DNA of 64,000 nucleotides, taken from the NCBI GenBank assembly GCA_004138175.2, contig RYFE02000008.1, positions 1 to 64,000 on the forward strand, given 5' to 3'. Within the stretch, counting starts at the first letter, position 1. Each line of letters opens with the position of its first letter. Made by a program: the position numbers and the translations under genes. The stretch is from Chloroflexales bacterium ZM16-3 (GTDB lineage Bacteria; Chloroflexota; Chloroflexia; Chloroflexales; Chloroflexaceae). The notes below the pieces were generated by a model that was not told the origin of the DNA, made no database searches, and saw only the letters and a program-made list of their open reading frames with translations. Positions 12,537 to 29,949 of the stretch are shown piece after piece.

Positions 12537-13625
12537 ATGAACGTCTCACTCTTTCGCTCCATCGCCAACCAATATAAGGACCTGCGCGGAGTCAACACGG
12601 TGTCAATGATGAACTCGATCAGTCAGCTGATTGAGAACCAGATCATCGACAACCAGCTGCCCGTCAACTTCTACGCCGGGTTCGAGCGGTTCTCGTACTT
12701 CCCGAGCCAGCTGCGGCGCTACAGTCGGCTCGGCGCAGTCTGTCGGCGGGTGTATGTGTTCGGCATCCCCGACGTCCGCCCGCCATCTATCCCAGGCATC
12801 GAGTTTGTCGAGATCCCCCCGAGCTCGCCGCTCGCCCGCGAGTGGTTTCTGCTGGTGGACACGCCCGACTTCTGGACGACCCTGCTGACCCAGGAGGTTG
12901 AGGGCCGCGATGCGATCACCGGCGGGCGGCGCTTCGACGGGATCTGGTCGTTCGATGAGCAGGTGGTCGACCGGGTCTCGCTGCTAATGTCCCAGGTACT
13001 TGAGAACTCCTACCTGCCGGTGACGCAGCGCAACCCTGATCGCCAGAGTCGGCACGTCGCCGACATCAGCGGCCACCTCGTCGGTGCCCTTGATACGGTC
13101 AAGCTGACCAGCCAGCGCCGCTGGCGGCAGATCACCACCTTGCAGAAGCTCGCCGAGCTCAGCCTGCAGAACAAGCCCCTCGGCGTGATGCTCAACGACG
13201 CCGCGCAGGTGCTGCACACGATCTTTGGGGCCACCGATGTCGCCATCACGCTGAGCGATGATAGCGCGCACCACACGATGGTCGGCACGGCTGGCAATGT
13301 GATCAGCAGCAAGCAGTCGTTCGTGATCGACAGCGGCCCGAGCGCGACGGCGCTCAGCCAGGGGCGCCTCGTGCAGATAGATGATATGCGCCAGGCCCGC
13401 GACCGTGACACCTGTCTGCCGATGGCGCTCTCGATCTGCACTGCGCCGCTGGTTGGCCGCAGCCGGGCCCAGGGCGTCGTGGTGATCGGCAGCCCGAAGG
13501 CAGGCGTATGGAACGAGGAGGATGGCAGGACTGTCGCCGCCTTCGCCAATATGCTGATGCCGATGATCGAGCGCTCGCGCCTGCAGAAGGTGCTGTTCGA
13601 TGTCACCCGCCAGCAGAATAAGTGA
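12537..13625 (+). CDS. DICT sensory domain plus GAF domain protein
   Basis: The 362-aa protein starts MNVSLFRSIANQY. Residues about 30-150 resemble the DICT sensory domain (FYAGFERFSYFPSQLRRY, VYVFGIPD, EWFLLVDTPDF). A GAF domain covers about 195-350 (LGVMLNDAAQVLHTIFGATD through VVVIGSPKAGVWNEEDGRTV). There is no output domain, so it likely works as a small-molecule or light sensor for a partner, as DICT proteins do in cyanobacteria and Chloroflexota. The ligand is unknown. Confidence 0.8.
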   Translation: MNVSLFRSIANQYKDLRGVNTVSMMNSISQLIENQIIDNQLPVNFYAGFERFSYFPSQLRRYSRLGAVCRRVYVFGIPDVRPPSIPGIEFVEIPPSSPLAREWFLLVDTPDFWTTLLTQEVEGRDAITGGRRFDGIWSFDEQVVDRVSLLMSQVLENSYLPVTQRNPDRQSRHVADISGHLVGALDTVKLTSQRRWRQITTLQKLAELSLQNKPLGVMLNDAAQVLHTIFGATDVAITLSDDSAHHTMVGTAGNVISSKQSFVIDSGPSATALSQGRLVQIDDMRQARDRDTCLPMALSICTAPLVGRSRAQGVVVIGSPKAGVWNEEDGRTVAAFANMLMPMIERSRLQKVLFDVTRQQNK

Positions 13626-13632
13626 GAAATGA

Positions 13633-13690
13633 GGCGTGAGGCGTGAGGCGTGAGGCGTAACTACGTTGCACCTCACGTTTTTTTTACGTA
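13633..13690. repeat. GAGGCGT heptamer repeat and T-run
   Basis: Four tandem GAGGCGT units are followed by a partial inverted copy (CCTCACG) and then eight T residues. It resembles a rho-independent terminator for the DICT-GAF gene built from simple repeats. Confidence 0.55.
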
Positions 13691-13775: not shown

Positions 13776-13817
13776 CGGTCATCCGCGCTGGGATGCTTAA
13801 AGATTTCCATGTCCCCT

Positions 13818-14089
13818 AATCCTTTTGGCCGAGGGGCTAATGCCTTTGGCCGAGGGGCTAATGCCTTTGGCCGAGGGGCTAATGCCTTTGGCCGAGGGGC
13901 TAATGCCTTTGGCCGAGGGGCCAATGCCTTTGGCCGAGGGGCCAATGCCTTTGGCCGAGGGGCTAATGCCTTTGGCCGAGGGGCTAATGCCTTTGGCCGA
14001 GGGGCTAAGCCTTTGGCCGAGGGGCCAATGCCTTTGGCCGAGGGGCCAATGCCTTTGGCCGAGGGGCTAATGCCTTTGGCCGAGGGGCC
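13818..14089. repeat. 21-bp tandem repeat array, 13 copies
   Basis: Twelve 21-bp units and one 20-bp unit follow the consensus AATGCCTTTGGCCGAGGGGC(T/C). Units differ mainly in the last base. In one plus frame they encode the heptapeptide NAFGRGA, but the 20-bp unit breaks this frame. Two degenerate units reappear at about 14212-14244 after an inserted palindromic element. No Cas genes or spacers are present, so this is not a CRISPR array. Confidence 0.92.
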
Positions 14090-14095
14090 AATGCC

Positions 14096-14244: not shown

Positions 14245-14421
14245 GCAATACCGCAGAAGTCGCCCTGTGCGGCATCGCCCGGCGGCTGAAGCCGCGGGCT
14301 AGCGGCTGCGAAGCCCGCCTGCGCGGGCTGGCCGAGGCCGCGCAGGCGGCATTTGCCGAACCGTAGCCCGCCCGTTTACGGGCCGGGCACTCAGTGTGAC
14401 AGGGTGACTTCTGCGCTACTG
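14245..14421. repeat. Composite palindromic repeat
   Basis: It begins GCAATACCGCAGAAG and ends TTCTGCGCTACTG. Inside are GCGGCTGAAGCCGC and CCCGTTTACGGGCCGGGC hairpins also found at 29950-30081, 31755-31808 and 9393-9457. Confidence 0.7.
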
Positions 14422-14578: not shown

Positions 14579-16651
14579 ATGACCTCGTTTCGCACGCTGC
14601 CCCTGCCAGCCATGATGGACACCTCCAGCCACGATCTGGCCGGTGCCTTCTTCACCCCGCTCCTCGCCCGCGCCGCGCGCTATGATCGCGGCGTCGGATT
14701 CTTCTCCTCCTCGTGGCTACGCATCAATGCTCAGGGCATGGCTGCTTTTGCAGCACATGGCGGGCGCGCTCGCTGGGTCACGAGCCCGATCCTCGATCCA
14801 GCTGATTGGGAGGCGCTGCTGCTCGGCGATGCCGCCCGCGATGATGTAGTGATCCGTGTCGCTCTGGAGCGCAGTATTGCGAACCTTGCAGACACCCTTG
14901 ATCGGGCGACCCGTAGCGCACTTGCTTGGATGGTGGCCGATGATATTTTGACGTTTAAGCTCGCCCTGCCACGCAATAAGCTAGAGCGCGGCGACTTCCA
15001 TGATAAGTTTGGCGTGTTCACCGATGCTACGGGTGATCAGGTGAGCTTTAACGGCTCATATAACGACAGCCTCCAGGGGATGCGTAACTACGAGTCGATC
15101 AAGATTTTTCGCTCCTGGGAGTCGGCGTTTGCCCCGCTGGTGAAGGCTGATGACGAGCGTTTCGATCGCTTGTGGAACAACCAGGATCCAAATGTGCGCG
15201 CCTTCGATCTTCCCGCTGCGGTGCGCGAGCAGATTGTCCGCCTGCGCGAGGATACACGGCCCTACTCTGAGCCGGAGTGGGTAGCGCTCAAACGAATTCA
15301 GGATGAGAGGCTGAGTTATAGAGCGCCGCGCCCAACATTGCCGCCGACAGTTACGCTGCGCGACTACCAGATCGATGCAATTGATGCCTGGTTTGCTCAC
15401 GGTTGTTGTGGCCTCATGGAGATGGCGACGGGAACCGGCAAGACGATCACTTCGCTTGCCGCCTCTGCTCGCCTCTACGAGCGTGAGGGCCAGCTGGCCG
15501 TGATTATTGCAGTGCCGTATCAGCACCTTGTTGATCAATGGGCGGAAGAGGCGCGATCCTTTGGTTATGAGCCGATATTAGCCTATCAGAGTAAGGCGCG
15601 CTGGCTCGACCCGCTCAACCAGCAGATCATGGAGTACAACGGCGGCTATCGGCGCTGCATCTCAGTGATCGTCACCCACAGCACTTTTGCCCGTGAAGAC
15701 TTTCAGCGCACGATCTATCGTCTCCAAGGTACATCACTGCTTATCGCCGATGAGGCACACCACCTCGGTGCCGAGCAACAACGCCAGAGCTATCCCGACC
15801 ATGTGCCGTTTCGGCTGGCGCTCTCGGCTACACCTGATCGTTGGTTTGATGATGCGGGAACCCTAGCGCTGCGCGACTACTTTGGCGAGACGGTTTTCTC
15901 CTTCACACTAGAGCAGGCGATTGGGGTCAGCCTGACGAACTACTACTACTACCCCCATCGGGTGGAGCTCACCGATGAGGAGATGGAGCGCTATGCCGAT
16001 CTCTCAGCGAAGATTGCGCGTCTAGCTCATCGCGACGACACCGATGCGCAGGAAGCTCTACGTATGTTGCTGATCAAGCGGGCCGATCTGCTGAACAATG
16101 CCGAAAATAAACTAACTGAGCTGGCGCAGCTGATCACGAACCCCGACGATGTCGCCCATGCCCTCTTCTACTGTGCCCCCGGCCAGATCGATGCCGCACT
16201 GCGCCTGCTCGGCATTGAGAAGGGCATACGTGTCCATCGCTTCACCGCAGAAGAGGTACCTCGCACGCGGCAACGGCTTTTAGCCGAGTTCAGTAGTGGT
16301 CAACTTCAAGGTCTTGTGGCAATGAAATGTCTCGATGAAGGGGTTGACGTACCTACTACTCAGAGTGCATACTTTCTTGCTAGTAGCGGTAATCCGCGCG
16401 AGTTCATCCAGCGCCGTGGGCGAGTCTTGCGGCGAGCGCCTGGAAAGCAGTTTGCCATCCTTCACGATCTGGTTGCGATCCCCAATCCAACCTTCAGTGA
16501 TCAGGCGGGCACTTCCTTTGATATGGAGCGCAGCATCATGCGCCATGAGTTCCAGCGCATTAAGGAATTTGCCAACCCCGCGCTGAATAAGCACCTGGCT
16601 CTTGATGCCGTGTGGGATATGGCCCGGCTCTATGGCATCATAGACTTTTAG
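14579..16651 (+). CDS. PLD-family nuclease-DEAD/DEAH helicase, phosphorothioation-system restriction enzyme (PbeA-like candidate)
   Basis: This 690-aa protein joins two parts. N-terminally, HDKFGVF at His141 and NGSYNDS about 15 residues later form an HKD-type phospholipase-D nuclease half-site. C-terminally is an SF2 helicase: Walker A ATGTGKT (about 283-289), DEAH at 391-394, SATPDRW, and motif VI QRRGRVLRR (about 611). The layout matches helicases annotated as DNA phosphorothioation system restriction enzymes. The frame is open upstream to 14507; I chose ATG 14579 because a TATACT box lies at 14537. It leads a tight four-gene module that converges on dndBCDE. It likely unwinds and cuts unmodified DNA; this role is inferred. 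Confidence 0.82.
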   Translation: MTSFRTLPLPAMMDTSSHDLAGAFFTPLLARAARYDRGVGFFSSSWLRINAQGMAAFAAHGGRARWVTSPILDPADWEALLLGDAARDDVVIRVALERSIANLADTLDRATRSALAWMVADDILTFKLALPRNKLERGDFHDKFGVFTDATGDQVSFNGSYNDSLQGMRNYESIKIFRSWESAFAPLVKADDERFDRLWNNQDPNVRAFDLPAAVREQIVRLREDTRPYSEPEWVALKRIQDERLSYRAPRPTLPPTVTLRDYQIDAIDAWFAHGCCGLMEMATGTGKTITSLAASARLYEREGQLAVIIAVPYQHLVDQWAEEARSFGYEPILAYQSKARWLDPLNQQIMEYNGGYRRCISVIVTHSTFAREDFQRTIYRLQGTSLLIADEAHHLGAEQQRQSYPDHVPFRLALSATPDRWFDDAGTLALRDYFGETVFSFTLEQAIGVSLTNYYYYPHRVELTDEEMERYADLSAKIARLAHRDDTDAQEALRMLLIKRADLLNNAENKLTELAQLITNPDDVAHALFYCAPGQIDAALRLLGIEKGIRVHRFTAEEVPRTRQRLLAEFSSGQLQGLVAMKCLDEGVDVPTTQSAYFLASSGNPREFIQRRGRVLRRAPGKQFAILHDLVAIPNPTFSDQAGTSFDMERSIMRHEFQRIKEFANPALNKHLALDAVWDMARLYGIIDF

Positions 16652-16659
16652 GAACAGCT

Positions 16660-16860
16660 ATGCACCGCGAACGTTTGCGCAACCTTTTTAGCAGCTACGA
16701 GCCGGCGATCCAGTCGGTCATCGATCAGGTGCTCCAGCTTGAGCAGGAGTACATCACGATGGATCGCCCCCGGCTCAAAGACCAGATTGACGACATCATT
16801 GAGGAAGTGGCAAAGCAAGAGCTTGGGATCACGAAGAAGCCCCACACCTCACGAGCATAG
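16660..16860 (+). CDS. Small helical protein of the phosphorothioation restriction module (PbeB-like candidate)
   Basis: The 66-aa product starts MHRERLRNLFSSYEPAIQSV and is mostly charged helix, probably a short coiled coil, ending in a basic tail. It sits 8 bp after the helicase stop and 3 bp before the next ATG, so it is almost certainly translated with them. A longer frame from 16612 overlaps the helicase and is less likely. No known domain was recognised. A role as assembly subunit between helicase and SMC-like ATPase is inference from position. Confidence 0.7.
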   Translation: MHRERLRNLFSSYEPAIQSVIDQVLQLEQEYITMDRPRLKDQIDDIIEEVAKQELGITKKPHTSRA

Positions 16861-16863: not shown

Positions 16864-18825
16864 ATGAAGCTTGACCGGATCGTCCTCGAAAACTTCCGCC
16901 AATACTTCGGCAAGCAGCGCCTCACCTTCGCCCGCGACTCGCAGCGCAATGTCACGGTGATCCACGGCGTGAATGGCGCAGGCAAGACCTCGCTCTTCCT
17001 GGCGATCAACTGGTGTCTCTACGGCCAGGCGGTTGATAACACCAAGATCGTCGAGAATGTTGGTGAGTTGATCAGCAAAGAGCTGATCAGCCGCAGTCAG
17101 CCCGGCGACCGGGTGATGACGGCGGTTGAGTTGCATTTTCTACATGATGGCGAGCGCTATATGGCCCGCCGTACGCTGCGTGGCTCGCGTGAGCGGAGCG
17201 GCGGGGTTTTGCTTGACCCCAAGGATAACTTCACGCTGATGCGGACACGCGGCGATGGTCAGACCGAGACGATCAAGAATCCAATCTTGACTATCAACTC
17301 TATGTTGCCGCCGAACGTCCGTATGTACTTCTTGTTCGATGGCGAGAAGATCGACGAGTTTGCCAAGCCCGAGTCGCGCAAGGATGTCAAGAACGCGATC
17401 TATCTGGTGCTGAAGCTCGAAATCCTAGAGCGGGCCAAGCGACATCTTGAAGGGAATGCCGACGAGTACAGCCGTGAGCTGCGCAAGGTGTCGAGCGGCG
17501 AGCTAGCTCGATTGCTTGACCGTGATGAAAAGGCTCGCGCAGAGCGCATGCGCGACGAGGAGCGCAAGACTGAGTTGCTGCGCACGATCGAGTCGGCCCG
17601 CCGCAAGATTGTTGATATCGACACCGCCCTGCGCGAGTCGCAGAACGCCCGCGAGCTTCAGCAACAGCGCGACCGGCTTGATCAGGCGCTCCGTGAGCGG
17701 CGAGGCGAGCTTGAGGCACAGATCGGCCAGATCCGCGATCTGGCGGTGGGCAGCTACTTTGCGATTGCCCAGCCCGCCGTCGACCGGGCGCTCCAGATCC
17801 TTGATGAGAAGCGCGAGCGTGGCGAGATCCCCAGCAGCATCCGCCAGCAGTTCGTACAGGATCTGATCGCACAGATGCGCTGTATCTGTGGCCGCCCAAT
17901 CGACGACGGCAGCCCTGAGCATCAGCGTCTGCTCAACCTGATACAGCATAGCCTGCCCGGCTCGCTCGAAGATGATGTGCTGAACACCAGCGCCAAACTG
18001 CTCCCCTTCGCCGAGCGCGTCACTCGCCAGCGCCAGGACATTGACGCGGCGATGCGCCAGCGGACAGAGCTGATTGGCGCGATCAACCAGCTCGATGCCG
18101 AGCTTGGCGACATCAGGCACCAGCTAGAGAAGTCGCCAGTGGCCGAGATCAGCCGCCTGGAGCGCCAGCGCCAGGATTTCTCCGCCGATGTTGATACCGC
18201 CAACCTGGAGATTGGCAGCATCAATGGCAACCTGGAGAAGCTGACAAAAGAGATCGCCCAGCTTGAGAAAGACATCGCCCGCGCAAAGACCGAGGAGCAG
18301 AAGGCGAACCTGCTCCAGACCAAGATCGACCTGGCCCGGCGCTCGGCGAACGCGATTGGCGAGATGTACGAGCGCTTCGCCGATGACATGCGCCTAAAGA
18401 TTGAGGCAAAGACCAAAGAGATCTTCAAGCTGCTGGCCTGGAAGGGCGAGCACTTCGAGGATGTGCGCCTGGGCGAGGATTACCACCTTGAGGTGATCGA
18501 CCGCTACGGCACAGCAGCCCGCCCCGACCTCTCGGCCGGTGAGCGCCAGGTGCTGAGCCTCTCGTTCATCACTGCGATGTCGCGGGTGAGCGAAGAAGAG
18601 GCCCCCCTGGTGATGGACACCCCCTTCGGGCGGCTCTCCTCGCAGCACCGCAACAACATCACCCAGCACCTACCGGCACTCGCCGACCAGCTGGTGCTGT
18701 TTGTGACCGACGAGGAGCTACGCGACCAGGCCCGCAGTAACCTGGAGCCGCTGATCGGCTTTGAGTACCGCCTGAACTTTGACCCGCGCACCAGCTGCAC
18801 AACAATTGAAGAGGAGGCAGTATGA
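16864..18825 (+). CDS. DndD-like SMC/Rad50-type ATPase of the restriction module (PbeC-like candidate)
   Basis: This 653-aa ATPase has Walker A GVNGAGKTS (about 37-45) and the DndD-type FLFDGEKIDEFAK segment. Two coiled-coil arms flank a central RCICGRPIDD turn (Cys340, Cys342), which resembles a zinc hook but with CxC spacing. The C-terminal lobe has the signature SAGERQ and Walker B/D-loop VMDTPFGRLSS. It is a paralogue of the canonical dndD at 25057-27114. Its stop overlaps the start of the next gene by 4 nt. By analogy it should couple ATP hydrolysis to DNA opening or sensing during restriction rather than to sulfur insertion. Confidence 0.88.
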   Translation: MKLDRIVLENFRQYFGKQRLTFARDSQRNVTVIHGVNGAGKTSLFLAINWCLYGQAVDNTKIVENVGELISKELISRSQPGDRVMTAVELHFLHDGERYMARRTLRGSRERSGGVLLDPKDNFTLMRTRGDGQTETIKNPILTINSMLPPNVRMYFLFDGEKIDEFAKPESRKDVKNAIYLVLKLEILERAKRHLEGNADEYSRELRKVSSGELARLLDRDEKARAERMRDEERKTELLRTIESARRKIVDIDTALRESQNARELQQQRDRLDQALRERRGELEAQIGQIRDLAVGSYFAIAQPAVDRALQILDEKRERGEIPSSIRQQFVQDLIAQMRCICGRPIDDGSPEHQRLLNLIQHSLPGSLEDDVLNTSAKLLPFAERVTRQRQDIDAAMRQRTELIGAINQLDAELGDIRHQLEKSPVAEISRLERQRQDFSADVDTANLEIGSINGNLEKLTKEIAQLEKDIARAKTEEQKANLLQTKIDLARRSANAIGEMYERFADDMRLKIEAKTKEIFKLLAWKGEHFEDVRLGEDYHLEVIDRYGTAARPDLSAGERQVLSLSFITAMSRVSEEEAPLVMDTPFGRLSSQHRNNITQHLPALADQLVLFVTDEELRDQARSNLEPLIGFEYRLNFDPRTSCTTIEEEAV

Positions 18826-19226
18826 GCGAGGGTAGTGCATTGCGCAGTGATCGTGTTATTATTGACGAGACGGTGATCGAGATCTACCATGAGTTGACCG
18901 ATGGTTCCAATGTCGAGCAGGCACCTTTCCGAACTCTCAAAGATGTCTTCATGCTCGCCGTAGCTCTCGGCTTCCGGCGTGGCAACCGCCGCGCCACCAG
19001 CGGACACTCGAAGCACTCCATCCGCAAAGAGGTGTTCACCGAGAACGACTACACCCTGCTAAAGGCCATCGCCATCGCCACCACCGGCGACGTGGAGGTG
19101 CTGATGAGCCAGGGCGAGGTGCTGACGATTGCCGAGGAGTATGCCCGAGTCGGTATCCACGATGTGAAGGCTGAACTGCTTGACCAGGCTGGTAGGCCGT
19201 TGTGGAATTTGGTGTCAATTCTCTAA
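18822..19226 (+). CDS. Dnd system-associated protein 4 homologue (PbeD-like candidate)
   Basis: The 134-aa protein has the layout of Dnd-associated protein 4: a central FMLAVALGFRRG segment, an SIRKEVF strand, a helix with AIAIATTGDVEVL and a late AEEYARVGI motif. These match the family's FaaalGfk, epI..eVF, iAla.tgd and EEYAnGG positions as I remember them. ATGA overlap with the SMC gene shows translational coupling. Its molecular role is not established; it is found with PT restriction modules. No catalytic motif is seen. Confidence 0.78.
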   Translation: MSEGSALRSDRVIIDETVIEIYHELTDGSNVEQAPFRTLKDVFMLAVALGFRRGNRRATSGHSKHSIRKEVFTENDYTLLKAIAIATTGDVEVLMSQGEVLTIAEEYARVGIHDVKAELLDQAGRPLWNLVSIL

Positions 19227-19243
19227 AGGAAGGAGTTAAATCT

Positions 19244-21022
19244 ATGGAAGCGAAGAGGATGTCTATTGCAACACTGCTGTACCAAAAGATGCCTTTTGTT
19301 GTTCCCAAATATCAGCGTGCTTATGCCTGGGAAGATGAGGAAATTGAGGACTTTATTAATGACATCCTAAAACTTTATACTCACCGAATAGACAATCCTT
19401 CTAGTGAAAAAAAGCATTTTTTTGGTGGAATTGTAAGTATAAATAAGGAGTTTTATGAGGTCATTGACGGACAACAGCGCCTTGCTACATTTATGATGTC
19501 TATTGCATTGACTATCAAATCATTAGGAAATATCATCGCTGATACTCACAAATCAAAAGACACCGATACTAAAAGCAAAGCTGAGGAATATGAGCGTGAA
19601 ACAAGACGTGATTATTTTCAGTACCGTGATCTCGAAGCTAGGCAAGATCGCTTACGACTTAGGCTCTCACTAGCAGATCTGAACTTCTACGAGCAACTTG
19701 TGCTTGGAAACAAGCCAACACCGACGCGCGAGTCTCATAAGAGACTCCGATATGCTTATGCGACTTTGCAAAAAAGATTATTCGATAGTATTCTAAAAGA
19801 CACCAATCTGGATTACCCTAAGAAGCTTGACAGAATTCTCACAATTCTTAATTGCCTGCTACAGGATTGCTATGTTATACATATAGCAAGTGACAACAAG
19901 AACGAAGCGTATCAGCTTTTTACTACATTGAATGATCGAGGTAAGTCCTTAAGCACCGGAGATTTATTAAGAGCACGGAGTTTGGAGCTACTTGAGGGCT
20001 ACGATCATCTTCAGCCTAACACTCAGCAGCATTGGGATAGTATTTTAGCTCCTCGAAGGCAGGATATCGACCATTTTTTGGAAAGTTATTATCCTTCTCA
20101 TAAAGGAGAACGTGCTTCCAAGCGCAATGTATTTGACGAATTTGTTGCGGTATTTTTTAGTTTTGTTTCTCCTATGAGCCACAAAGATGCTTTGGTTATC
20201 GAGCAACGAGTGGCCAGCATGAGCATAGAAAGTGATTTATTTGAAAAAATCAAAGATGGTGATTGGCCATACGAAAGTCCTACAGCTTCCACATGGAATA
20301 AAGATCGATTATTTAGGTTAATACGAGTTCTCAAACATGAACTCTGTTTGCCGATCCTAATGGCAGCAACTCTTCATCTCGACGAAAAGGTATTTGCGGA
20401 TATCGTTGGCTTGATTGAGAGATTTGCTTTTCGCTATGTGACGATGGTTGGAGCACATATTGGCCCTCTAGCTGACAAATACTACAAGTATGCAGTCAAG
20501 ATCCGTGGAGGGATATTTGATTTTCATGAACTGGAAAACGAACTCAAAATACTAGCTCAAACCAATGCGCAGGATGGTGTATTTGAAGCAAATCTTTCTG
20601 CTAAACTCAGGTATTCCGAGAAGTCATCCCAGCAAAATCGGGTTATCAAACACTTTTTGACGACCCTTGAGGATTATCAGGAGTGGTTAAATACTGGTGC
20701 TTCTGGCCATCCTCGTAAGAAGGATCAAACGAAATGCTTTGATCTTAATCAGGTGACAGTTGAGCATATTTATCCTAAGAATGCGGCTACCCCTATACCA
20801 GATCTTGTAGAGCATCGACATGATCTAGGAAATCTCACCATACTTGGCCCTGAAAACTCAAGCCTAGGTAACAAGCCATTCTTATCAAAGACTGGTGAAT
20901 ACGGAAAATCCCACATTTCAATGACTCGTGCATTATCTAATCTCCCTGATTGGACAATAGATTCTGTAGATAAGCGACAGAAAGAACTCATCCGACAAGC
21001 TCTTAAGGTATATGCATTCTAG
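19244..21022 (+). CDS. DUF262-DUF1524 (GmrSD/SspE-type) nuclease
   Basis: The 592-aa protein has an N-terminal DUF262 domain with VPKYQRAYAWEDEEI and the nucleotide-binding IDGQQRLATFM motif (Asp75). The C-terminal DUF1524 His-Me nuclease domain carries VEHIYPKN (His508) and HDLGNLTILGPENSSLGN. GmrSD cuts modified DNA; SspE of the Ssp PT system has the same layout and is stimulated by PT. I choose ATG 19244 because GGAAGGAG lies just before it. The gene starts 17 bp after the preceding stop. Base composition is strikingly different: 18 of 60 bases are G/C at 19501-19560 against 37 of 60 at 18541-18600. It is therefore probably a later acquisition. Confidence 0.9.
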   Translation: MEAKRMSIATLLYQKMPFVVPKYQRAYAWEDEEIEDFINDILKLYTHRIDNPSSEKKHFFGGIVSINKEFYEVIDGQQRLATFMMSIALTIKSLGNIIADTHKSKDTDTKSKAEEYERETRRDYFQYRDLEARQDRLRLRLSLADLNFYEQLVLGNKPTPTRESHKRLRYAYATLQKRLFDSILKDTNLDYPKKLDRILTILNCLLQDCYVIHIASDNKNEAYQLFTTLNDRGKSLSTGDLLRARSLELLEGYDHLQPNTQQHWDSILAPRRQDIDHFLESYYPSHKGERASKRNVFDEFVAVFFSFVSPMSHKDALVIEQRVASMSIESDLFEKIKDGDWPYESPTASTWNKDRLFRLIRVLKHELCLPILMAATLHLDEKVFADIVGLIERFAFRYVTMVGAHIGPLADKYYKYAVKIRGGIFDFHELENELKILAQTNAQDGVFEANLSAKLRYSEKSSQQNRVIKHFLTTLEDYQEWLNTGASGHPRKKDQTKCFDLNQVTVEHIYPKNAATPIPDLVEHRHDLGNLTILGPENSSLGNKPFLSKTGEYGKSHISMTRALSNLPDWTIDSVDKRQKELIRQALKVYAF

Positions 21023-21248
21023 TCTTACGCCGTTCTTTAATCTGACCTCTAGTTGAATCTATATCCCCCTGAATCTCAGCCAGCATCTGCCGCTGGACTT
21101 CCAGGGCACCGTGGAGCATCTGGCGTTGGGCATCAATCGCATCCTGAAGCTTCGCAAGGTTTTGCATAATGTGGCCAACTGCCATCTCAACTGTGATCTG
21201 CTCCTGGCTCCATAGGCGAACAAGTTCTTTGGGTGGCACCGTGCTCAT
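21003..21248 (-). CDS. Small coiled-coil protein, unknown function
   Basis: The 81-aa product is highly helical, with IMQNLAKLQDAIDAQRQML and a following QRQMLAEIQ heptad-like stretch that suggests oligomerisation. AAAGG lies 9 nt before the ATG at 21248; a TTG at 21257 is an alternative start. Its 3' end overlaps the end of the convergent DUF262 gene by 20 bp. No family was recognised. Position suggests part of the island, but no role can be given. Confidence 0.5.
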   Translation of the reverse strand: MSTVPPKELVRLWSQEQITVEMAVGHIMQNLAKLQDAIDAQRQMLHGALEVQRQMLAEIQGDIDSTRGQIKERRKTRMHIP

Positions 21249-21420
21249 ACTGCTCAACCTTTCTGTCTGTCTGTGCGTCTATAGGCGCAAATATATCATG
21301 CTTTATCGGGCATGTCAAGCAATACATTCTGTTGATCCAGGCGTGCGCTGAACCACCGGCACACCTGGTCGCCTGATGGATGTTGTATCGTCACTGAGTG
21401 ATGTTGAAGATATTGGATCT

Positions 21421-21636
21421 ATGCAGCGCTTCGGAGAGAAATTACGAACTCTGCGTCAGCAGCGGGGTATGACAATGCGCGACATGGCCGACGCGCTCGG
21501 CTTTAAGTCGCACGGGTTCGTCAGTGATCTGGAGAGTGGGCGCAAGCACCCGTCGCTTGAGTTGGCGATCAAAATTGCCGACTACTTCGGCGTCGCGCTC
21601 GATCAGCTTGCGCGGGATGAGCTGGAGGTTTCCTGA
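21421..21636 (+). CDS. XRE-family HTH regulator
   Basis: The 71-aa core MQRFGEKLRTLRQQRGMTMR is followed by DMADALGF...FVSDLESGRKHPSLELAIKIADYFGV, a textbook Cro/C1-type HTH of five helices. An upstream in-frame ATG at 21376 would add 15 residues and cannot be excluded. With no other domain it probably acts as a dimeric repressor. Candidate targets are its own promoter, the neighbouring MntA-HepT genes or the PT genes. Confidence 0.85.
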   Translation: MQRFGEKLRTLRQQRGMTMRDMADALGFKSHGFVSDLESGRKHPSLELAIKIADYFGVALDQLARDELEVS

Positions 21637-21759: not shown

Positions 21760-22086
21760 ATGAGCGCTGCGTCAAAAGCTATCATCCACGAGTCTATCGA
21801 CACGATCCGTGCTTTTTGCCAGCAATGGGGCATCACCGAGTTTGCCCTGTTCGGCTCAGTGTTGCGCAGCGACTTTCGTCCCACCAGCGATATTGATGTC
21901 CTCGTCGACTTCCGCGACGAGGTGCGCTACAGCCTGTTCGACCTGGCGCGCATGGGCGACCAGCTTGAACAGATGTTTGGTCGCCCTGTCGATCTGATCG
22001 ACCGCAAGGCCATCGAGCAAAGCCCCAACTATCTCCGGCGCCAGACGATTTTGCACTCAGCCGAGGTTGTCTATGCGGAGCGATGA
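21760..22086 (+). CDS. mntA: MntA-type nucleotidyltransferase antitoxin
   Basis: The 108-aa protein has the minimal nucleotidyltransferase (MNT) motif ALFGSVLRSDFRPTSDIDVL: GS, then DxD metal ligands, followed by VDLIDR. Such proteins neutralise HepT RNases, in characterised cases by adding AMP to the toxin. It overlaps the hepT start by 14 bp, the usual arrangement. TACAAT at 21710-21715 may be its -10. Confidence 0.9.
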   Translation: MSAASKAIIHESIDTIRAFCQQWGITEFALFGSVLRSDFRPTSDIDVLVDFRDEVRYSLFDLARMGDQLEQMFGRPVDLIDRKAIEQSPNYLRRQTILHSAEVVYAER

Positions 22087-22426
22087 GGCCCTGCTGCTCG
22101 ACATGCTGCTCGCCCTCCAGAAGATTGTGCACTTTACGCAGGGGCTAGGCGAGGCCGAGTTTCAGGCGAGCGACCTCGTCCAGAGCGCGGTGATCCGTGA
22201 GTTTCAGGTCTTGGGAGAAGCGGCACGGCTCGTATCTGCAGAAGCGCAGGCCCAGCATCCGGCGATTCCCTGGAGATTAATCGCGGGAATGCGTAACCGC
22301 CTGATTCATGAGTATTTTGACGTACGCCTTGATGTTGTCTGGACGACCGTACAGCGTGACATCCCACAGCTGCTTCAGCAGCTTGTAGCCGTGGTGCCGC
22401 CGCCAGTCCCCGATCAGGAAGGATGA
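22073..22426 (+). CDS. hepT: HepT-type HEPN RNase toxin (DUF86)
   Basis: This 117-aa all-helical HEPN protein carries the catalytic RxxxxH motif in MRNRLIHEYF, followed by the tyrosine that MntA modifies in studied pairs. ATG 22073 lies within the 3' end of mntA; a TTG at 22067 is possible. With mntA it forms a complete toxin-antitoxin pair lying between the two arms of the PT island. It could act as an addiction element or as a fail-safe triggering dormancy. Confidence 0.9.
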   Translation: MRSDEALLLDMLLALQKIVHFTQGLGEAEFQASDLVQSAVIREFQVLGEAARLVSAEAQAQHPAIPWRLIAGMRNRLIHEYFDVRLDVVWTTVQRDIPQLLQQLVAVVPPPVPDQEG

Positions 22427-22458: not shown

Positions 22459-22584
22459 TCACAGATTCCGGCGGCGCATCTCATCGGACTGGAAGGCAGC
22501 AAAATCAATCCCGCTGATGTACCGCTCGATCCTGGTGATCGCCTCCAGGATATCCTCCAGATACAGGCGATAGTCCCTCGGCAT
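22459..22584 (-). pseudogene. Truncated HepT (DUF86) toxin fragment
   Basis: ATG at 22584 overlaps the adjacent MNT gene, as in intact pairs. It encodes MPRDYRLYLEDILEAITRIE and about 21 more residues before a stop after SDEMRRRNL. This is the first third of a DUF86 protein. The catalytic RxxxxH region is missing, so the toxin is dead. Confidence 0.75.
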
Positions 22585-22885
22585 AGACAACCTCGCTCAG
22601 GATAACCGGGCGTAGCCGTGGCTTCAGCGTATCAACCAGTACCAGATCGACCGGCAGGCCGAAGGTGTCTTCAAGCCAGAACTTGAGGTTCATATAGCCA
22701 TCGAATGATGGGTGTTCCAGGTCTGTCAGGAAGTCCAGATCGCTGTTGAGCTGCGGTGTCCCGCGCCGGTACGAGCCAAACAGGCCAAGCGAGCGCACCC
22801 CCAGCGACCGGAGCCGCGCGCGGTTGCGCGCCAGTTCGGCGAGCACCTCGGCAGCCGTCCACTGTTGTCTGGTCGTCACGCTCAT
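22505..22885 (-). CDS. MNT-domain nucleotidyltransferase (orphan antitoxin, extended C-terminus)
   Basis: The 126-aa protein has LGLFGSYRRGTPQLNSDLDF with the GS and DxD residues of minimal nucleotidyltransferases, plus LPVDLVLVDTLKPRL. Homologues normally end near the EVVYAE segment. Here the frame runs on through the overlapping truncated hepT, adding about 19 low-similarity residues. With its toxin partner broken it is probably decaying or serves cross-immunity. Confidence 0.78.
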   Translation of the reverse strand: MSVTTRQQWTAAEVLAELARNRARLRSLGVRSLGLFGSYRRGTPQLNSDLDFLTDLEHPSFDGYMNLKFWLEDTFGLPVDLVLVDTLKPRLRPVILSEVVYAEGLSPVSGGYPGGDHQDRAVHQRD

Positions 22886-22927: not shown

Positions 22928-24094
22928 CTACGCCGCCGCGATCATCGCCCGCAGCTCGGCGGCGCGGCGGGCGACGATCGCGATCGCGGCATCGACCTGC
23001 GCGGCGTCGTTGGCGCGGCCCAGGCCGAAGCGCAGCGAGCAGTGGGCGCGCTCCTCACCGAAGCCCAATGCCATAATGACATGTGATGGCTCGACCGAGG
23101 CGCTGGTGCAGGCCGAGCCGGTGGCCACGGCGAGATCTTTGAGGCCAGCGATGAAGGCGCGGCTCTCGACGCCGGGGATGTAGATGTTCAGGTTGTGCGG
23201 CAGGCGCTCGCGCGGGTGGCCGTTGAGCGCGACCCCTGCGATGCGCTGCTGCAAGCCGGCGAACAGCTGCTCGGTCAGTGCTCGCAGCTGGGCCGCCTGC
23301 TGCTTCATCTCGCGCCGGGCAATCTCCGCCGCCGCGCCGAGGCCGACGATCCCCGGCACGTTCAGCGTGCCCGAGCGCATGCCGCGCTCGTGGCCGCCGC
23401 CGTAGATCTGCGGGGCCACGCGCACGCGCGGGCCGCTGCGCCGCACATAGAGCGCGCCGACGCCCTTGGGGCCGTACATCTTGTGCGCCGAGAGCGAGAG
23501 CAGGTCGATCTGCATCTGCTGCACGTCGAGCGGCACATACCCCGCCGCCTGGGTGGCGTCGGTATGGAAGAGCGCGCCGTGGTCGCGGGCGATCTGGCCG
23601 ATCGCGGCCAGCGGGGCCAGCGTACCGATCTCGTTGTTGGCGGCCATGATCGAGATCAGCACCGTCTGCGGGGTGATCGCCGCGCGCAGCTCGTCCAGGT
23701 CGATCTGGCCGTACTGGTCAACGCCCAGGTAGCTCACCCGCCTGCCCTGCGCCTCCAGGCGCTTCGCCGCATCAAGCACCGCCTTATGCTCGGTGACGCA
23801 GGTGATGATATGGTCGCCCCTATCGGCGTAGCGCTCGGCAACCCCGAAGAGGGCCAGGTTATCGGACTCGGTGGCCCCGCTGGTGAAGATGATCTCGTCG
23901 GGGCGGGCGCCGATCAGCGCCGCCACCTGAGCGCGGGCCTGCTCGACGGCATGGCTGGCCTGGTAGCCGAACTCGTGGTCCTTGCTGGCCGCGTTGCCAA
24001 AGATCTCGGTGAAGAAGGGCAGCATGGCCGCCAGCACGCGCGGCTCAACCGGCGTGGTGGCGTGGTGGTCCATGTAGATCGGCGTGGCGGGCAT
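22928..24094 (-). CDS. dndA: Cysteine desulfurase (DndA/IscS type)
   Basis: This 388-aa PLP enzyme starts with IYMDHHATTPVEPRVL. It contains TSGATESDNLALFG, the His of TEHKAVLD, the PLP lysine in SLSAHKMYGPKG and the active-site cysteine loop ATGSACTSAS. It releases sulfur from cysteine as a persulfide. In Dnd systems this sulfur is passed to DndC. The location 25 bp after the embedded toxin gene and on the same strand as dndBCDE supports dndA, but sequence alone does not separate DndA from a housekeeping IscS. Confidence 0.9.
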   Translation of the reverse strand: MPATPIYMDHHATTPVEPRVLAAMLPFFTEIFGNAASKDHEFGYQASHAVEQARAQVAALIGARPDEIIFTSGATESDNLALFGVAERYADRGDHIITCVTEHKAVLDAAKRLEAQGRRVSYLGVDQYGQIDLDELRAAITPQTVLISIMAANNEIGTLAPLAAIGQIARDHGALFHTDATQAAGYVPLDVQQMQIDLLSLSAHKMYGPKGVGALYVRRSGPRVRVAPQIYGGGHERGMRSGTLNVPGIVGLGAAAEIARREMKQQAAQLRALTEQLFAGLQQRIAGVALNGHPRERLPHNLNIYIPGVESRAFIAGLKDLAVATGSACTSASVEPSHVIMALGFGEERAHCSLRFGLGRANDAAQVDAAIAIVARRAAELRAMIAAA

Positions 24095-24118
24095 CGTATA
24101 GCTATCCTCGCGACTACC

Positions 24119-24388
24119 TCAGGCCCTGCCTAGCAGGCGCTCGTACTCGTCGTGATTGCCAATCCAGAACCAGACGATAGTGTCATCACTCCGTATACCA
24201 ACGGCACGGTAGTCGCGATTGATACGAGCAGAATAGATAGGCCGCGTCGGGTGGACTTGCCGAAAGCGCAGACCCGGATGGCTCGGACTGGCCTGAAATA
24301 GGCGATATGCCTCACGGGCCTGACGCTGGATGCCTTCGGGAAGATCAGCAAAAGCGCTGCGAAATCTCTCAGTGGTGCGTGATTTCAC
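24119..24388 (-). CDS. RelE/ParE-superfamily toxin
   Basis: The 89-aa basic protein has an N-terminal helical hairpin (FRSAFADLPEGIQRQAREAY) and the beta-sheet end typical of RelE/YafQ/ParE toxins (IYSARINRDYRAVGIRSDDT, then WFWIGNHDEYERLL). GTG is the likely start. It begins 7 bp after the stop of a 70-aa partner. mRNA cleavage versus gyrase inhibition cannot be distinguished here. Confidence 0.8.
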   Translation of the reverse strand: MKSRTTERFRSAFADLPEGIQRQAREAYRLFQASPSHPGLRFRQVHPTRPIYSARINRDYRAVGIRSDDTIVWFWIGNHDEYERLLGRA

Positions 24389-24395
24389 GGCGGTT

Positions 24396-24608
24396 TCAGT
24401 CTACATCCAGCGGCTTCGTTGTGCCCGCCCGAAATTCGCGCAGAGCTTCATCTGCGAGCGCATTGAGGGTATCGGCACTCCTCGCAAAAAGCGTATTCCA
24501 GCGATGCTCGGCCTTCAGCTCGGAGATGATCCAGGCGGCGAACAGCTCTTGATCTTCAGGCGCAAGCTTTGCTGCCTCGCTAAAAGCTGCTTCGAGTGTC
24601 GTCGTCAT
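24396..24608 (-). CDS. Putative antitoxin partner of the RelE/ParE-like toxin
   Basis: The 70-aa acidic protein MTTTLEAAFSEAAKLAPEDQ continues with a helix-rich ELFAAWIISELKAEHRW segment and a C-terminal ALREFRAG tail. It resembles the small ParD/Phd-unrelated antitoxins that precede RelE-type toxins in cyanobacteria and Chloroflexota. A much longer frame running upstream through dndE is an artefact of high GC; GGAGG lies before ATG 24608. Confidence 0.7.
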   Translation of the reverse strand: MTTTLEAAFSEAAKLAPEDQELFAAWIISELKAEHRWNTLFARSADTLNALADEALREFRAGTTKPLDVD

Positions 24609-24685
24609 AACCCACGCCTCCTCCGCATATGCCGCTCGTCCTATACGTAGTATACACCTGCCTCCTGCCTCCTGCCTCCTGCCGA

Positions 24686-25060
24686 TTACCCCTCCCCCGA
24701 CGCAAGCGCGCAGAGGTCGGGCAGGGACTTGGCGCGCTGGTAGAGCAGCAGGACGCCACGGTTCATATGGGCGTGGAGCTGGGCGTCGAAGGCGTCGCCG
24801 TAGGTGGGCAGCTGGTCGGCCAGGCAGCGCTGGCGCAGCAGGGCGATGATCAGGGCGTCGTAGCGGCCGACGAGCGTGCCGCGCTCGATCTCGCGCGGGC
24901 TGTCCTCGGGGTACTGCGCGGGATCGGGCGCGCCCGGCTCGGCGAGCGAGAGGCTGAACCCGAAACGGCAGAGCAGGTTGGCGCTGAGGCCGGTGCGCGC
25001 CCGCAGCAGGCGCAGGCGTGTGTCGGCCTCGGCGCAGAAGCGGACGCGGGTGAGGCTCAT
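24686..25060 (-). CDS. dndE: DNA sulfur modification protein DndE
   Basis: The 124-aa protein has the DndE hallmark TGLSANLLCRFGFSLSL in its N-terminal third, matching the family's TGLtpNilcRlaf signature. A helical C-terminus with HMNRGVLLLYQ follows. DndE binds nicked duplex DNA within the DndCDE complex. Its ATG overlaps the dndD stop (ATGA), showing translational coupling. Confidence 0.92.
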   Translation of the reverse strand: MSLTRVRFCAEADTRLRLLRARTGLSANLLCRFGFSLSLAEPGAPDPAQYPEDSPREIERGTLVGRYDALIIALLRQRCLADQLPTYGDAFDAQLHAHMNRGVLLLYQRAKSLPDLCALASGEG

Positions 25061-27114
25061 AGGGCCAGCTCTTCTTCGGCTTGCGGCCAGAAGTAGCCCG
25101 GCTCCACCTGGCTGCCGGCCTCGCCGGGGCGGTACGTGAGCTGGTAGGTGCGGGCGATGGCCGGGGCCAGGTCGGCGTAGAGCGCGGCGTCGATCTCGGT
25201 GTCGGTAGAGAGCAGGACGACCTGGTGGCTGGCGTGGGGGAAGTAGTGCTGTACCAGGCGGCGGCGGTGGTCGCTGTCGAGGCGACCGAGGGGCGTATCG
25301 ATAATGATCGGCAGGCTGCGCCCGGAGACCAGCCGCAGCGCCCAGAGGACGGCGACGGCGTAGATCTGCTTCTCGCCGGCCGAGAGCTGCTCGCGGGGCA
25401 GGGCGTCGCCCTTCTGGCTGTAGAGCGTGGTGGCGAAGGTGGCCGGGTCGATAGCGATGCGCCGGATATAGCGGCCCTTGCGGCTGAGCCGGCTGAAGCA
25501 CTCGACGATCGCATTCTCCAGCTCGCCGAGCCGGCGCTGGCGCAGCGCCTCCTCGTAGCGCACAAGCACCTGCTGGGCGCGGCCAGCCAAGCGCACGCGC
25601 TGGCTCGGGTCGTCGCCGCGCATCAGGCGGGTCGAGAGGGCTTTCTCCTCGTGGTCGAGGGCGGCGCGGCGCTTGCGGATCTGCTCAACAAGCAGCTCTT
25701 GCGTCTTGTGCCTCACCTCCAGGGCGCCCAGCTCGCGCTGGAGGGCAGAGAGCTGCTGGAGGAGCGGCTGGACATGCTCCTCAGCCGGAAGGCTGTCAAG
25801 CGAGGACTCCACCGTGGCAAGCTCATCCATCGCCGCGCGGAGATCATCTCCCAGCGGGCCGATCTGCTGCGGCAGCGCGCCGGTGGCCTGGTCGAGCCAG
25901 CGGATCAGCTCGCGCCGCTCGTCTTTCTCCAGCGGGTGGATGATCGTCTCAGCGGCCAGGGCGACATCATCCGCGTGAACCATGCTGGAGCGGATCTCGC
26001 GGGCCAGTTGCTTGAGGCTTCTGCGCAGAACCCCGTGATCCTTGTTGCTCAGCTTGATCGGGCCGATCCAGTCTTTCTGATAATCAAGCTGCTGATCAAA
26101 CCGCTCAATGAACTCATCGGCTGTGCTGGAAACCTGAATATACTGCTCGACGCGCTCGTCAAGCTCAAGGCGATCCTTCAGCGCCAGGGTGAGCTGCGGG
26201 ATGATCGCAAAGGGCAGCAGACCGGCGGCGTGCTCGGCGACGGCGCGCTCGTAGCGGCGGATGCGCTCGCGCAGGTTATCAGCCTGCTGCTTGAGGTTGT
26301 CGCGCCGGATAGCGATATCGCCGCCCTCGCTGGCGAGCTGGCGTTCGGCGGCCTCAACCTGGGACTGAGCCTGGCCGATCAGGCTGGCCAGGTGGGCCTC
26401 CTCGGTGTGGGCAAGGGCGAACTCCGCATCGAGGACGGTGCGGCGCGCGTTCAGCTCGGCGATCTGAGCGTCGAGCCCAACATTGCCAGATCGGCGCTGG
26501 CGGTTCTGATACGCAACCAGATCACCGCGCAGGCGGTCGAGCAGGTCAAGGCCGAGCAGCGAGCGGATGGCCTCGCCGAGGGCGGTGTAATCCGGGTCAT
26601 CGGCGAGCGCCTGGATCTTCTCACCATCGAAGAAGAAGAGGTCGGCCAGCCCCGGCGGCAGCAGGTCGTAGAGAAACGGCTCCCAGATCGCCAGCTCCGG
26701 AGCGGGGAGGGGCGCGCCATCGCGGGTGACATCGACCGTCTCCGCTACACCGCTGCGCTGGCGCTGCCACATGCGGCGCATGCTAAATGTGTGTTCAGCG
26801 CCGCCGACAGTGTGGACAAACCCGACCCCGACGCCAGCAAAGGCGAGCCCCTGCGGCGCACCGGGCAGGCGGTGGATGCGGCCGAGCAGGTAGCGCTCGT
26901 AGGCCGCGCGCTTTGTCCCCTTGCCGAGGGCGACCGACCCATACAGGCAGAGCCGCACCGCCTCTAGGATGGTTGTCTTGCCTGCGCCATTTCTCCCGCC
27001 GATCAGCGTGATCGGCCGGTCGGTGGTGGCCTGATCGGCGGGGGGGCGAACATCGATGACATGCTCGCCAGGGTAGAGGCCGAAATTGATCAGGCGAAAC
27101 TCAGTGAAGTACAC
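25057..27114 (-). CDS. dndD: DNA sulfur modification protein DndD (SMC-like ATPase)
   Basis: This 685-aa protein starts MYFTEFRLINFGLYPGEHVI and has Walker A GRNGAGKTTIL. The DndD marker FFFDGEKIQALADD is present. Long coiled-coil arms lead to the ABC-type signature SAGEKQ and Walker B/D-loop IIDTPLGRLDSD. DndD is thought to open or nick DNA so DndC can place sulfur on the backbone. Unlike the paralogue at 16864, no cysteine hook is obvious at the arm turn. It lies 132 bp after dndC, and that gap is filled by a palindromic MITE. Confidence 0.96.
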   Translation of the reverse strand: MYFTEFRLINFGLYPGEHVIDVRPPADQATTDRPITLIGGRNGAGKTTILEAVRLCLYGSVALGKGTKRAAYERYLLGRIHRLPGAPQGLAFAGVGVGFVHTVGGAEHTFSMRRMWQRQRSGVAETVDVTRDGAPLPAPELAIWEPFLYDLLPPGLADLFFFDGEKIQALADDPDYTALGEAIRSLLGLDLLDRLRGDLVAYQNRQRRSGNVGLDAQIAELNARRTVLDAEFALAHTEEAHLASLIGQAQSQVEAAERQLASEGGDIAIRRDNLKQQADNLRERIRRYERAVAEHAAGLLPFAIIPQLTLALKDRLELDERVEQYIQVSSTADEFIERFDQQLDYQKDWIGPIKLSNKDHGVLRRSLKQLAREIRSSMVHADDVALAAETIIHPLEKDERRELIRWLDQATGALPQQIGPLGDDLRAAMDELATVESSLDSLPAEEHVQPLLQQLSALQRELGALEVRHKTQELLVEQIRKRRAALDHEEKALSTRLMRGDDPSQRVRLAGRAQQVLVRYEEALRQRRLGELENAIVECFSRLSRKGRYIRRIAIDPATFATTLYSQKGDALPREQLSAGEKQIYAVAVLWALRLVSGRSLPIIIDTPLGRLDSDHRRRLVQHYFPHASHQVVLLSTDTEIDAALYADLAPAIARTYQLTYRPGEAGSQVEPGYFWPQAEEELAL

Positions 27115-27130
27115 GGGAGACCTTTAATGT

Positions 27131-27244
27131 GCAGTAGCGCAGAAGTAACGCTGTGAGGCGTCCTGTCATTCTGAGCGAAGCGAAGAATCCCGGCCGGGAC
27201 CCTTCGCTTCGCTCAGGGTGACAGCGTTACGTATGCGCTACTGC
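27131..27244. mobile_element. Palindromic MITE-like element between dndC and dndD
   Basis: The 114-bp element starts GCAGTAGCGCAGAAGTAACG and ends GTATGCGCTACTGC, with inner arms TGAGCGAAGCGAAG. CTTTAATG before it and CTTTATG after it may be a degraded target duplication. It has no coding capacity. The hairpin could attenuate or process the dndBC-dndDE transcript. Confidence 0.8.
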
Positions 27245-27246
27245 CT

Positions 27247-28671
27247 TTATGCCCTGTTGATTCCGCTCGCCTGCGCCTCAACGAGCTGGTGGTGGCGTTC
27301 CACAGACGCGACGACATCTGCCTCGCTGCGCCAATCGCTGTGGAGGGCCGCGTCGATGCGGGCGTGGGTGGCGGCGCGCCCGCCGAGGCCAGCGGTCGCC
27401 TGATGCTGGCTCTCGATCAGCGCGATCATCAGGCCGACGGGCAGATCCTCCTCGGCGCAGATCTGGGCCAGCAGAGCGCGCTCGGCCTCGCCGAAGATCG
27501 CCCCATCGTCCTCAGGCCAGGGCAGATCGCTGTGCGTAACATCACGATAGATCCGCTTGACCGAGTCTTCCCAGTCCTGAGCCTCGGCCCGCCAGAGACG
27601 GCGGATGGCGTAGAGCTCAGCGGGGCTGATCAGCTCGTACTGCGGGTCGGGGCCGTCTCGTCGCACCTGGTTCTGCACATCAAGCAGGCGAGCCAGCAGA
27701 TCCTGGCGAAACTCCAGCTTATAGGGGCCACGGATAAGCAGCTCGCCCTGGCCGCGCTTGCGGTAGTGAACCTGCCCATCACGGCGGCGGTAGTCGCGCA
27801 CCTCGGCGCGCCGCTCGGGCTGCTGGGTGGCCGCCAGAAAGTCGCGGAACTCAAGCATCGGGGCCATCCACTCCTCGCCGTTATCGATCAGCGCCTCCAT
27901 CGAGCGGTCGCGCTCGACCACGGTGCAGACCCAGCAGCCGAAGCGGCTGTTCCCGCAGGAGGGCGTAGAGAGATCGACCACCAGCGGGCACTCGCCCGAC
28001 TGCGCGCTACGGTAGAGCGAGGCCAGGTCGCGGTTATTGCCGCCCCAGGGCGAGGGGACGCTCAGCAGGTAGCTCCAGACATCATCGGTGCTGAAGGTGT
28101 CGATCGGCGTGTAGACATAGGCGCGTGGCAGGGTCGAGTGGCGCGAGAGGCGCGAGCCAGTAATGCGATACTCGTCCATCACCTGCGCGCGCGACGTGCT
28201 CTCGCTATGGCGCTGGCCGAGCACGAGGACGACATCGCCGTGCTTGGCCACCGTGCCGAGGATGAAAGAGTCGGCCGGCTTAATCTTCATGCGCTCGGTA
28301 CACCAGCGAAAGCGGCTGTGGGGGGTCGGGTAGCCGCGCCCAAGCAGGTTCACCCAGAAACTATCATTCACCTCGGGGGTGAGGCGATGGACGGTCAGCG
28401 GAAGGCCAGCCTCGCGGGCGGCGCGGCCGATCTGGCCGAGGTTATTGTTCACGTGGTCGACGATCAGCGGCGTCTCGACCAGCGTATCGGTGGCGATCAC
28501 AAAGATCGGCTTGGTCAGCTGATCGCGCGGCAGGTCGCGCAGAGCGAGCCAGACCAGCTGGAGCGTGGCGGTAGAGTCCTTGCCGCCGCTGTAGCCGATC
28601 ACCCAGGGCATGGTGTTCGAGAGATACACCTCGCGGATATCGCGGTAGGTCGCGGGGAGATCAATCGTCAT
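27247..28671 (-). CDS. dndC: DNA sulfur modification protein DndC
   Basis: The 474-aa protein belongs to the PAPS-reductase/ATP-pyrophosphatase family. It begins MTIDLPATYRDIREVYLSNT and has the PP-loop YSGGKDST near residue 28. A cysteine cluster (CPLVVDLSTPSCGN, then FGCWVCTVV) would hold the Fe-S centre. DndC activates the DNA backbone with ATP and receives sulfur from the desulfurase. Its start overlaps the end of dndB by 4 nt. Confidence 0.96.
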   Translation of the reverse strand: MTIDLPATYRDIREVYLSNTMPWVIGYSGGKDSTATLQLVWLALRDLPRDQLTKPIFVIATDTLVETPLIVDHVNNNLGQIGRAAREAGLPLTVHRLTPEVNDSFWVNLLGRGYPTPHSRFRWCTERMKIKPADSFILGTVAKHGDVVLVLGQRHSESTSRAQVMDEYRITGSRLSRHSTLPRAYVYTPIDTFSTDDVWSYLLSVPSPWGGNNRDLASLYRSAQSGECPLVVDLSTPSCGNSRFGCWVCTVVERDRSMEALIDNGEEWMAPMLEFRDFLAATQQPERRAEVRDYRRRDGQVHYRKRGQGELLIRGPYKLEFRQDLLARLLDVQNQVRRDGPDPQYELISPAELYAIRRLWRAEAQDWEDSVKRIYRDVTHSDLPWPEDDGAIFGEAERALLAQICAEEDLPVGLMIALIESQHQATAGLGGRAATHARIDAALHSDWRSEADVVASVERHHQLVEAQASGINRA

Positions 28672-29789: not shown

Positions 29790-29866
29790 ACGCGAGGCTC
29801 CAGGCATCAAAAAGGCAGACTGGAAGGATAGTATTGTTCTTTGGAAGTATATAAGATACGTACAAA

Positions 29867-29895
29867 AGTATACGCGCAAGCGCACGGATTGGCAA
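29867..29895 (-). promoter_or_regulatory. Sigma70-type promoter of dndBCDE
   Basis: On the minus strand TTGCCA is followed by exactly 17 nt and then TATACT, about 78 nt upstream of the dndB ATG. The AT-rich leader just downstream has short dyads (GTACGTATC, CTTATATAC) that could be operator sites. Confidence 0.65.
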
Positions 29896-29949
29896 GTAGC
29901 GACACGTGACCGCCCCCTACACACCCGTGCTACAATCTCAGGACATACG

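Follow-up and report, generated by a model that had tools for sequence, protein, structure and literature searches.

We propose that orf5, an AT-rich gene at 19244–21022 (plus strand) of the window, i.e., of the whole 64,000-bp stretch analysed, encodes a DndI-type nickase sensing phosphorothioate (PT) marks and is the fifth and terminal gene of a pbeABCD-orf5 operon that converges on the PT modification genes dndBCDE-dndA. The gene appears to be an old resident of this locus, in a slot whose content can be exchanged. We put the probability of this reading at roughly 70%. It draws on sequence homology and motifs, on gene order and common junctions, on an equal synonymous depth, and on differing cargo at one and the same position.

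The orf5 gene and its neighborhood

The reading frame of orf5 is intact, with an ATG start, 592 codons, and a stop at 21020–21022. The 592-aa product matches the Pfam families GmrSD_N (DUF262; 1.9e-32) and GmrSD_C (DUF1524; 1.3e-19), both above the Pfam cut-offs, which bears out the domain assignment made in the initial annotation. Its best PADLOC profiles are Orf5 (3e-183) and HEC-06 (2e-74), but these are profile labels only, and no paper defining PADLOC Orf5 was found in a search of the open-licence literature.

The only strong relative among solved structures is DndI (PDB 9JFL), which matches the protein full-length (residues 5–592, E = 1e-65), the match to SspE being marginal (1e-3). Residues essential in DndI (PMC11662687), i.e., Y25, D83GQQR87, and N541, are kept in orf5 as Y23, D75GQQR79, and N538, and neither these positions nor H508 and N530 vary among five homologues. 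The DndI features present thus comprise the N-terminal DUF262 domain, the C-terminal DUF1524/HNH domain, the DGQQR motif, the P-x-Y-Q tyrosine, and the HNH catalytic Asn; PxYQR and DGQQR residues, often seen in DUF262 proteins without PT sensing too, are not exclusive to DndI. AlphaFold2 models of orf5 and of the DGQHR protein of a relative described below had pLDDT values of 33–34, too poor for structural support. DndI is reported to nick DNA, to have an ATPase affected by PT, and to be harmful to cells that lack PT (PMC11662687); by homology, the orf5 protein may likewise sense PT and nick DNA.

The GC content of orf5 is 40.2% (51/34/35% by codon position). The initial annotation was right about a strong fall to low GC after a GC-rich gene, although its value of 30% was too low. 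Stretches of the same length in the 64-kb window have a mean GC of 64.9% (sd 3.5, minimum 56%), placing orf5 approximately 7 sd under the mean. Its GC3 is 0.35, against a mean of 0.80 (sd 0.087) in the other long ORFs of the window, and its codon-usage fit is the poorest of 29 long ORFs, so that a composition foreign to its neighbors, as originally claimed, is confirmed by the full profile. In 100-bp steps the GC content is uniformly low, with no mosaic, and the drop is sharp, setting in at the final bases of pbeD (~19200) and ending just past the orf5 stop (21000–21100).

Upstream, on the same strand, the traits of PbeABCD are found in order: a PbeA helicase, a PbeB of 66 aa, and a CxC ABC ATPase PbeC. 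The pbeA gene (14579–16651) encodes an SF2 helicase of ~690 aa with an N-terminal extension (PADLOC PbeA, 1.6e-231; NCBIfam dnd_restrict_1, 8.7e-159, under the profile cut-off); a longer ORF is possible from a GTG at 14507, and homologues begin at the ATG at 14579. The small pbeB gene (16660–16860) has a reading frame kept in the two closest relatives. The SMC-like pbeC gene (16864–18825; 653 aa, GC 60.8%) matches PADLOC PbeC at 3.5e-250 and has a CIC motif at residues 340–342 by alignment. It is followed by pbeD (18822–19226; DNA phosphorothioation-associated protein 4, 134 aa, GC 56.5%), which scores 58 bits with TIGR04062 (9.9e-16), short of the cut-off of 74, and 7e-4 with PADLOC PbeD; its size and position fit, and orthologues are found in the same position in relatives. 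Hence the SMC-like gene does not directly precede orf5, as had been stated, but stands one gene further up, with pbeD between them. The 17-bp gap between the pbeD stop and the orf5 start was described correctly, as was a separate Shine-Dalgarno sequence, AAGGAG (19230–19235, plus strand), read from the sequence 8 nt before the ATG. A consensus scan listed no terminator between the two genes. Orf5 is probably co-transcribed with the pbe operon, in line with the earlier suggestion of a placement for co-expression with a PT-linked module, and its product may cooperate with PbeABCD.

On the other side, orf5 is followed by a small convergent ORF (21003–21248, minus strand) and by a gene for an 86-aa XRE-type regulator (21376–21636, plus strand). 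The PT modification genes dndBCDE-dndA adjoin this region at 22928–29924, all on the minus strand: dndA, encoding a cysteine desulfurase (22928–24094; PADLOC DndA, 6e-167), dndE (24686–25060, start approximate), dndD (25057–27114; DndD, 2e-228), dndC (27247–28671; DndC, 1.2e-189), and dndB (28668–29924; DndB, 9.8e-153). The dndE gene is assigned from its position after dndD and from ~72% identity over 121 aa to a small gene that a relative of the same genus (G037, locus L022) has between its dndA and dndD. The interval from orf5 to dndA also contains, at 21760–22426, a gene matching a nucleotidyltransferase profile (PDC-S09) and an overlapping 119-aa ORF, which together resemble an MNT/HEPN toxin-antitoxin pair; a second nucleotidyltransferase-like ORF lies at 22505–22885 (minus strand).

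At the left edge of the pbe-dnd island we observed a 7-bp tandem repeat (13630–13658) and a 13-copy array of a 21-bp tandem repeat (13816–14095). Copies of a palindromic repeat element are found at 9396–9456, 14246–14421, 29951–30039, and 31736–31810, and by chance the middle two lie on either side of the island. That inverted repeats at 14246–14421 and 29951–30039 set the island edges was considered and rejected, as these are interspersed elements with more copies in the window. The same-genus genome G034 is homologous over 12379–13649 (93%) and then diverges, and contigs of two further genomes (G035 and G036) end exactly at the right edge of the island, so that no clean empty site can be read.

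Distribution and age of orf5

Among 158 genomes of the class, pbeC was found in five, the window's own included, and in three of these five orf5 is present in the pbe context at an identity of at least 43%. The pbeC search of genome contigs gave three loci, and a broader survey covered genomes and plasmids. Chloroflexi AL-N1 (G056, locus L023) carries pbeABCD-orf5 with the same junction, its orf5 protein being 77% identical to that of the window and having a GC3 of 0.35. In G022 (L024), orf5 also follows pbeD (43% identity, GC3 0.34–0.36) and is split by a frameshift. Both are draft or metagenome assemblies. The uncultured Oscillochloris KT5_bin-278 (G037), of the same genus as the window, has no orf5; here an HNH_5 gene (279 aa) begins 17 bp past the pbeD stop and is followed by a DndB/DpdB-like DGQHR gene (390 aa); the pair, which has GC3 values of 0.35 and 0.36, extends directly to dndA. 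Finally, G018 (L025) has several other genes at this place, one of them with an HNH_2 domain. Hence the gene and its composition, which the initial annotation had proposed to compare across relatives, recur in two of the four other module carriers, and in the remaining two, one with different AT-rich genes and one with unrelated genes, the slot does vary. The outcome that the annotation had named as refuting its reading, this gene with this composition in every relative with the module, is seen in part.

The order pbe(A)CD-orf5 facing dndA, seen in AL-N1 and G022, is also found in a plasmid of Methylobacterium bullatum (L043), where pbeA-C-D-orf5 faces dndA-E-D-C-B, orf5 is ~31% identical, and GC3 is 0.59 for orf5 vs. 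0.67 for pbeC. Two other arrangements were observed. In Salmonella Infantis SARB27 (L092, 7896–10779; a record filed among phages), a DGQHR gene and, after it, a DndI-like gene are convergent with dndE-D-C-B in a stretch that has no pbe genes and adjoins genes of an integrative-conjugative element. In a plasmid of Candidatus Chlorohelix allophototropha (L034, 2039–7976), pbeA is split by an opposite-strand gene of 381 aa, and pbeC, truncated at ~112 aa, is followed by very AT-rich genes (GC3 0.23–0.27).

The age of the insertion was assessed by comparison with AL-N1. Residual fourfold-site identity, i.e., the part in excess of what base composition predicts, amounts to 0.169 in orf5 (95% CI 0.06–0.27) and 0.148 in pbeC (0.06–0.23), while pbeA and pbeD give 0.03 and ~0, respectively. 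Synonymous sites of all four genes are near saturation, and there is no sign that orf5 is younger than pbeC. At the same time, GC4 in the window and AL-N1 is 0.31 and 0.32 for orf5 vs. 0.80 and 0.56 for pbeC. Nucleotide homology with AL-N1 runs on 3' of orf5 through the small ORF (67% identity) and the XRE gene, of which AL-N1 retains a decayed copy in the same place. Since flanks and junctions are common to both genomes and orf5 and pbeC have the same synonymous depth, the two genomes share the insertion, which would be old unless a different AT-rich allele has replaced the gene in situ in one lineage or in both. By the same token, its low GC content is old or repeatedly renewed and provides no clock.

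An assembly chimera at orf5 was rejected, as the same gene order is seen in independent genomes. A phage-borne cassette was rejected on searches of viral contigs and of a phage collection: no relatives of orf5 were found among IMG/VR viral contigs, and the phage collection gave a single one, on a draft Salmonella contig with integrative-conjugative-element genes.

The slot after pbeD and the low GC content

The 3' end of pbeD is the fixed upstream border of a variable slot, and dndA is its downstream border. AL-N1 retains part of a second pbeD, an 84-bp tail that is joined to the XRE remnant and shares 83% identity with AL-N1's own pbeD. A second DUF262/DUF1524 gene, interrupted by a single in-frame stop, follows 28 bp past this tail (the whole at 14680–16699 of the reverse complement). 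This looks like a relic of an earlier pbeD-cargo arrangement. We surveyed the slot in some 40 additional pbe loci (Chloroflexota, Halobacteria, and plasmids), a number of which are near-duplicates. The content after pbeD varies, from no same-strand gene to an N6_N4 methylase, a McrB-like AAA protein, Mrr_cat, or Pfam-less genes; in a Halorhabdus tiamatea plasmid (L042, 9610–13723), for instance, pbeD is immediately followed by a McrB-like AAA gene (MrcB_N + AAA_5) with a partner of 442 aa. The GC3 of the same-strand gene after pbeD minus that of pbeC ranges from -0.10 to +0.20 in the surveyed loci and from -0.16 to -0.44 in the window, AL-N1, G022, and G037. Hence the strong GC contrast is peculiar to the latter group and is not general to pbe loci.

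What keeps these genes AT-rich may be explained in several ways. One explanation, which has some weight while falling short of probable, is that a pool of circulating AT-rich effectors has repeatedly refilled the slot or overwritten orf5, so that the low GC content is young each time and the position old. It accounts for three different cargos all having a GC3 of 0.32–0.38 whatever the GC3 of the host module (0.50–0.79), and the pbeD-tail fossil in AL-N1 shows that recombination at pbeD occurs; however, the evenness of the low GC along orf5, the divergence of its flanks in step with it, and the near-absence of relatives from viral and phage sequences all speak against such a supply.

Alternatively, though we hold this to be somewhat unlikely, the composition could be constrained: a nuclease that is harmful when PT marking fails may be kept weakly expressed by poor codons or by AT-rich silencing. 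Toxicity of DndI in the absence of PT has been reported (PMC11662687), and the GC4 of orf5 is unchanged in two hosts despite near-saturated synonymous sites. Moreover, GmrSD_C genes across the class have a GC content below that of their flanks (median -6.9 points; 23 of 26 genes; Wilcoxon p = 7e-5), and N6-methylase genes do not (+1.6 points; Mann-Whitney p = 3e-6 against GmrSD_C genes), with the reservation that the methylases are an imperfect control, their flanks often being other restriction genes, and that related genomes are not independent points. On the other hand, another GmrSD gene of the window's own genome (L111) has a GC content of 61%, hence the family does not force low GC, and the Methylobacterium orf5 is only slightly AT-shifted. 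Constraint and repeated AT-rich supply are both possible, and the data favor neither. A bolder version, which we consider doubtful, is that the pbeD end is a recombination-prone slot exchanging toxic, self-sparing nucleases whose AT-rich codons are kept by selection as a safety device; if so, low GC would signal function and not recent transfer.

It is improbable that orf5 is a stand-alone type IV (GmrSD-like) enzyme directed against modified phage DNA and placed beside the PT genes by chance. The GmrSD_N and GmrSD_C matches and the existence of unlinked DUF262/DUF1524 genes in the class agree with this, but DndI is the best match among solved structures, and orf5 is linked to pbe and dnd genes in members of two phyla. 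Least probable is the proposal of the initial annotation, that the gene came recently into this lineage from an AT-rich donor and was spliced onto an existing operon, which we reject despite the extreme composition of orf5 and its absence from the module-carrying G037: AL-N1, with the same gene, junctions on both sides, flanks, composition, and a divergence as deep as that of pbeC, largely refutes it, and the state of G037 reads as a replacement and not as ancestral, because its pbeC is closer to that of the window than is that of AL-N1 (86 vs. 71%).

A possible mechanism and relation to known systems

In the reading that we prefer, that of a DndI-type nickase, DndABCDE would put a sulfur mark on host DNA, and the ParB-fold DUF262 NTPase domain of orf5, with its DGQQR motif and P-x-Y-Q pocket, would by homology read this mark. 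On NTP hydrolysis the enzyme would then let go of marked DNA, and nicking of unmarked invading DNA would fall to its C-terminal HNH (DUF1524) domain. The gene would have been in place before the modules of the window and of Chloroflexi AL-N1 split, with the pbeD–dndA interval serving as an exchangeable effector slot, in which orf5 may have given way to the HNH and DGQHR pair in G037 and been joined by another DUF262 gene in AL-N1.

DndI itself, PbeABCD, and the occurrence of nucleases near ABC-ATPase/DndE cores are already known. Orf5 is homologous to DndI of Salmonella enterica Cerro 87 (IscS-DndBCDE-DndI; PMC11662687) over its whole length, agrees with it in the order of the domains and in the catalytic and PT-sensing residues, and is likewise linked to a dnd modification module. 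The Cerro 87 gene belongs with a dndFGH operon, whereas orf5, whose activity is predicted, ends a pbeABCD operon and has a GC content far below that of its neighbors; we regard the dndFGH setting as incidental to the type case and not as part of what defines DndI. The order and sizes of PbeA, B, C, and D and the linkage to PT genes are shared with DndCDEA-PbeABCD of Haloterrigena jeotgali (PMC6459918), but the archaeal system is described as having four pbe genes and as acting without direct cleavage of viral DNA (PMC6459918), and the operon in the window has an attached fifth gene, for a nuclease. SspE is likewise a PT-sensing nickase with DUF262 and DUF1524 domains; however, it is similar to orf5 only at the marginal level given above, and no sspBCD genes were found near orf5. 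Diverse nucleases near CxC ABC-ATPase/DndE cores have been described in a review (PMC10853773) whose main text does not name DUF262 or DUF1524; no mention of a slot at the pbeD end or of its composition was found there. PADLOC Orf5 profiles show that such genes are already catalogued; in the open-licence literature we came across neither a pbe operon with a DndI-type gene in fifth place nor an exchange at the pbeD end.

These observations suggest that DndI is a portable effector, attachable to different PT restriction modules, i.e., dndFGH in Salmonella and pbeABCD here. The pbeABCD system would thereby gain an explicit nickase, though its archaeal counterpart reportedly acts without cleaving DNA directly. 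Strong AT-richness, often taken as a mark of recent transfer, has in this case lasted, or has been renewed, while synonymous sites diverged almost to saturation, and the slot at the end of pbeD may be a place to seek new PT-linked nucleases.
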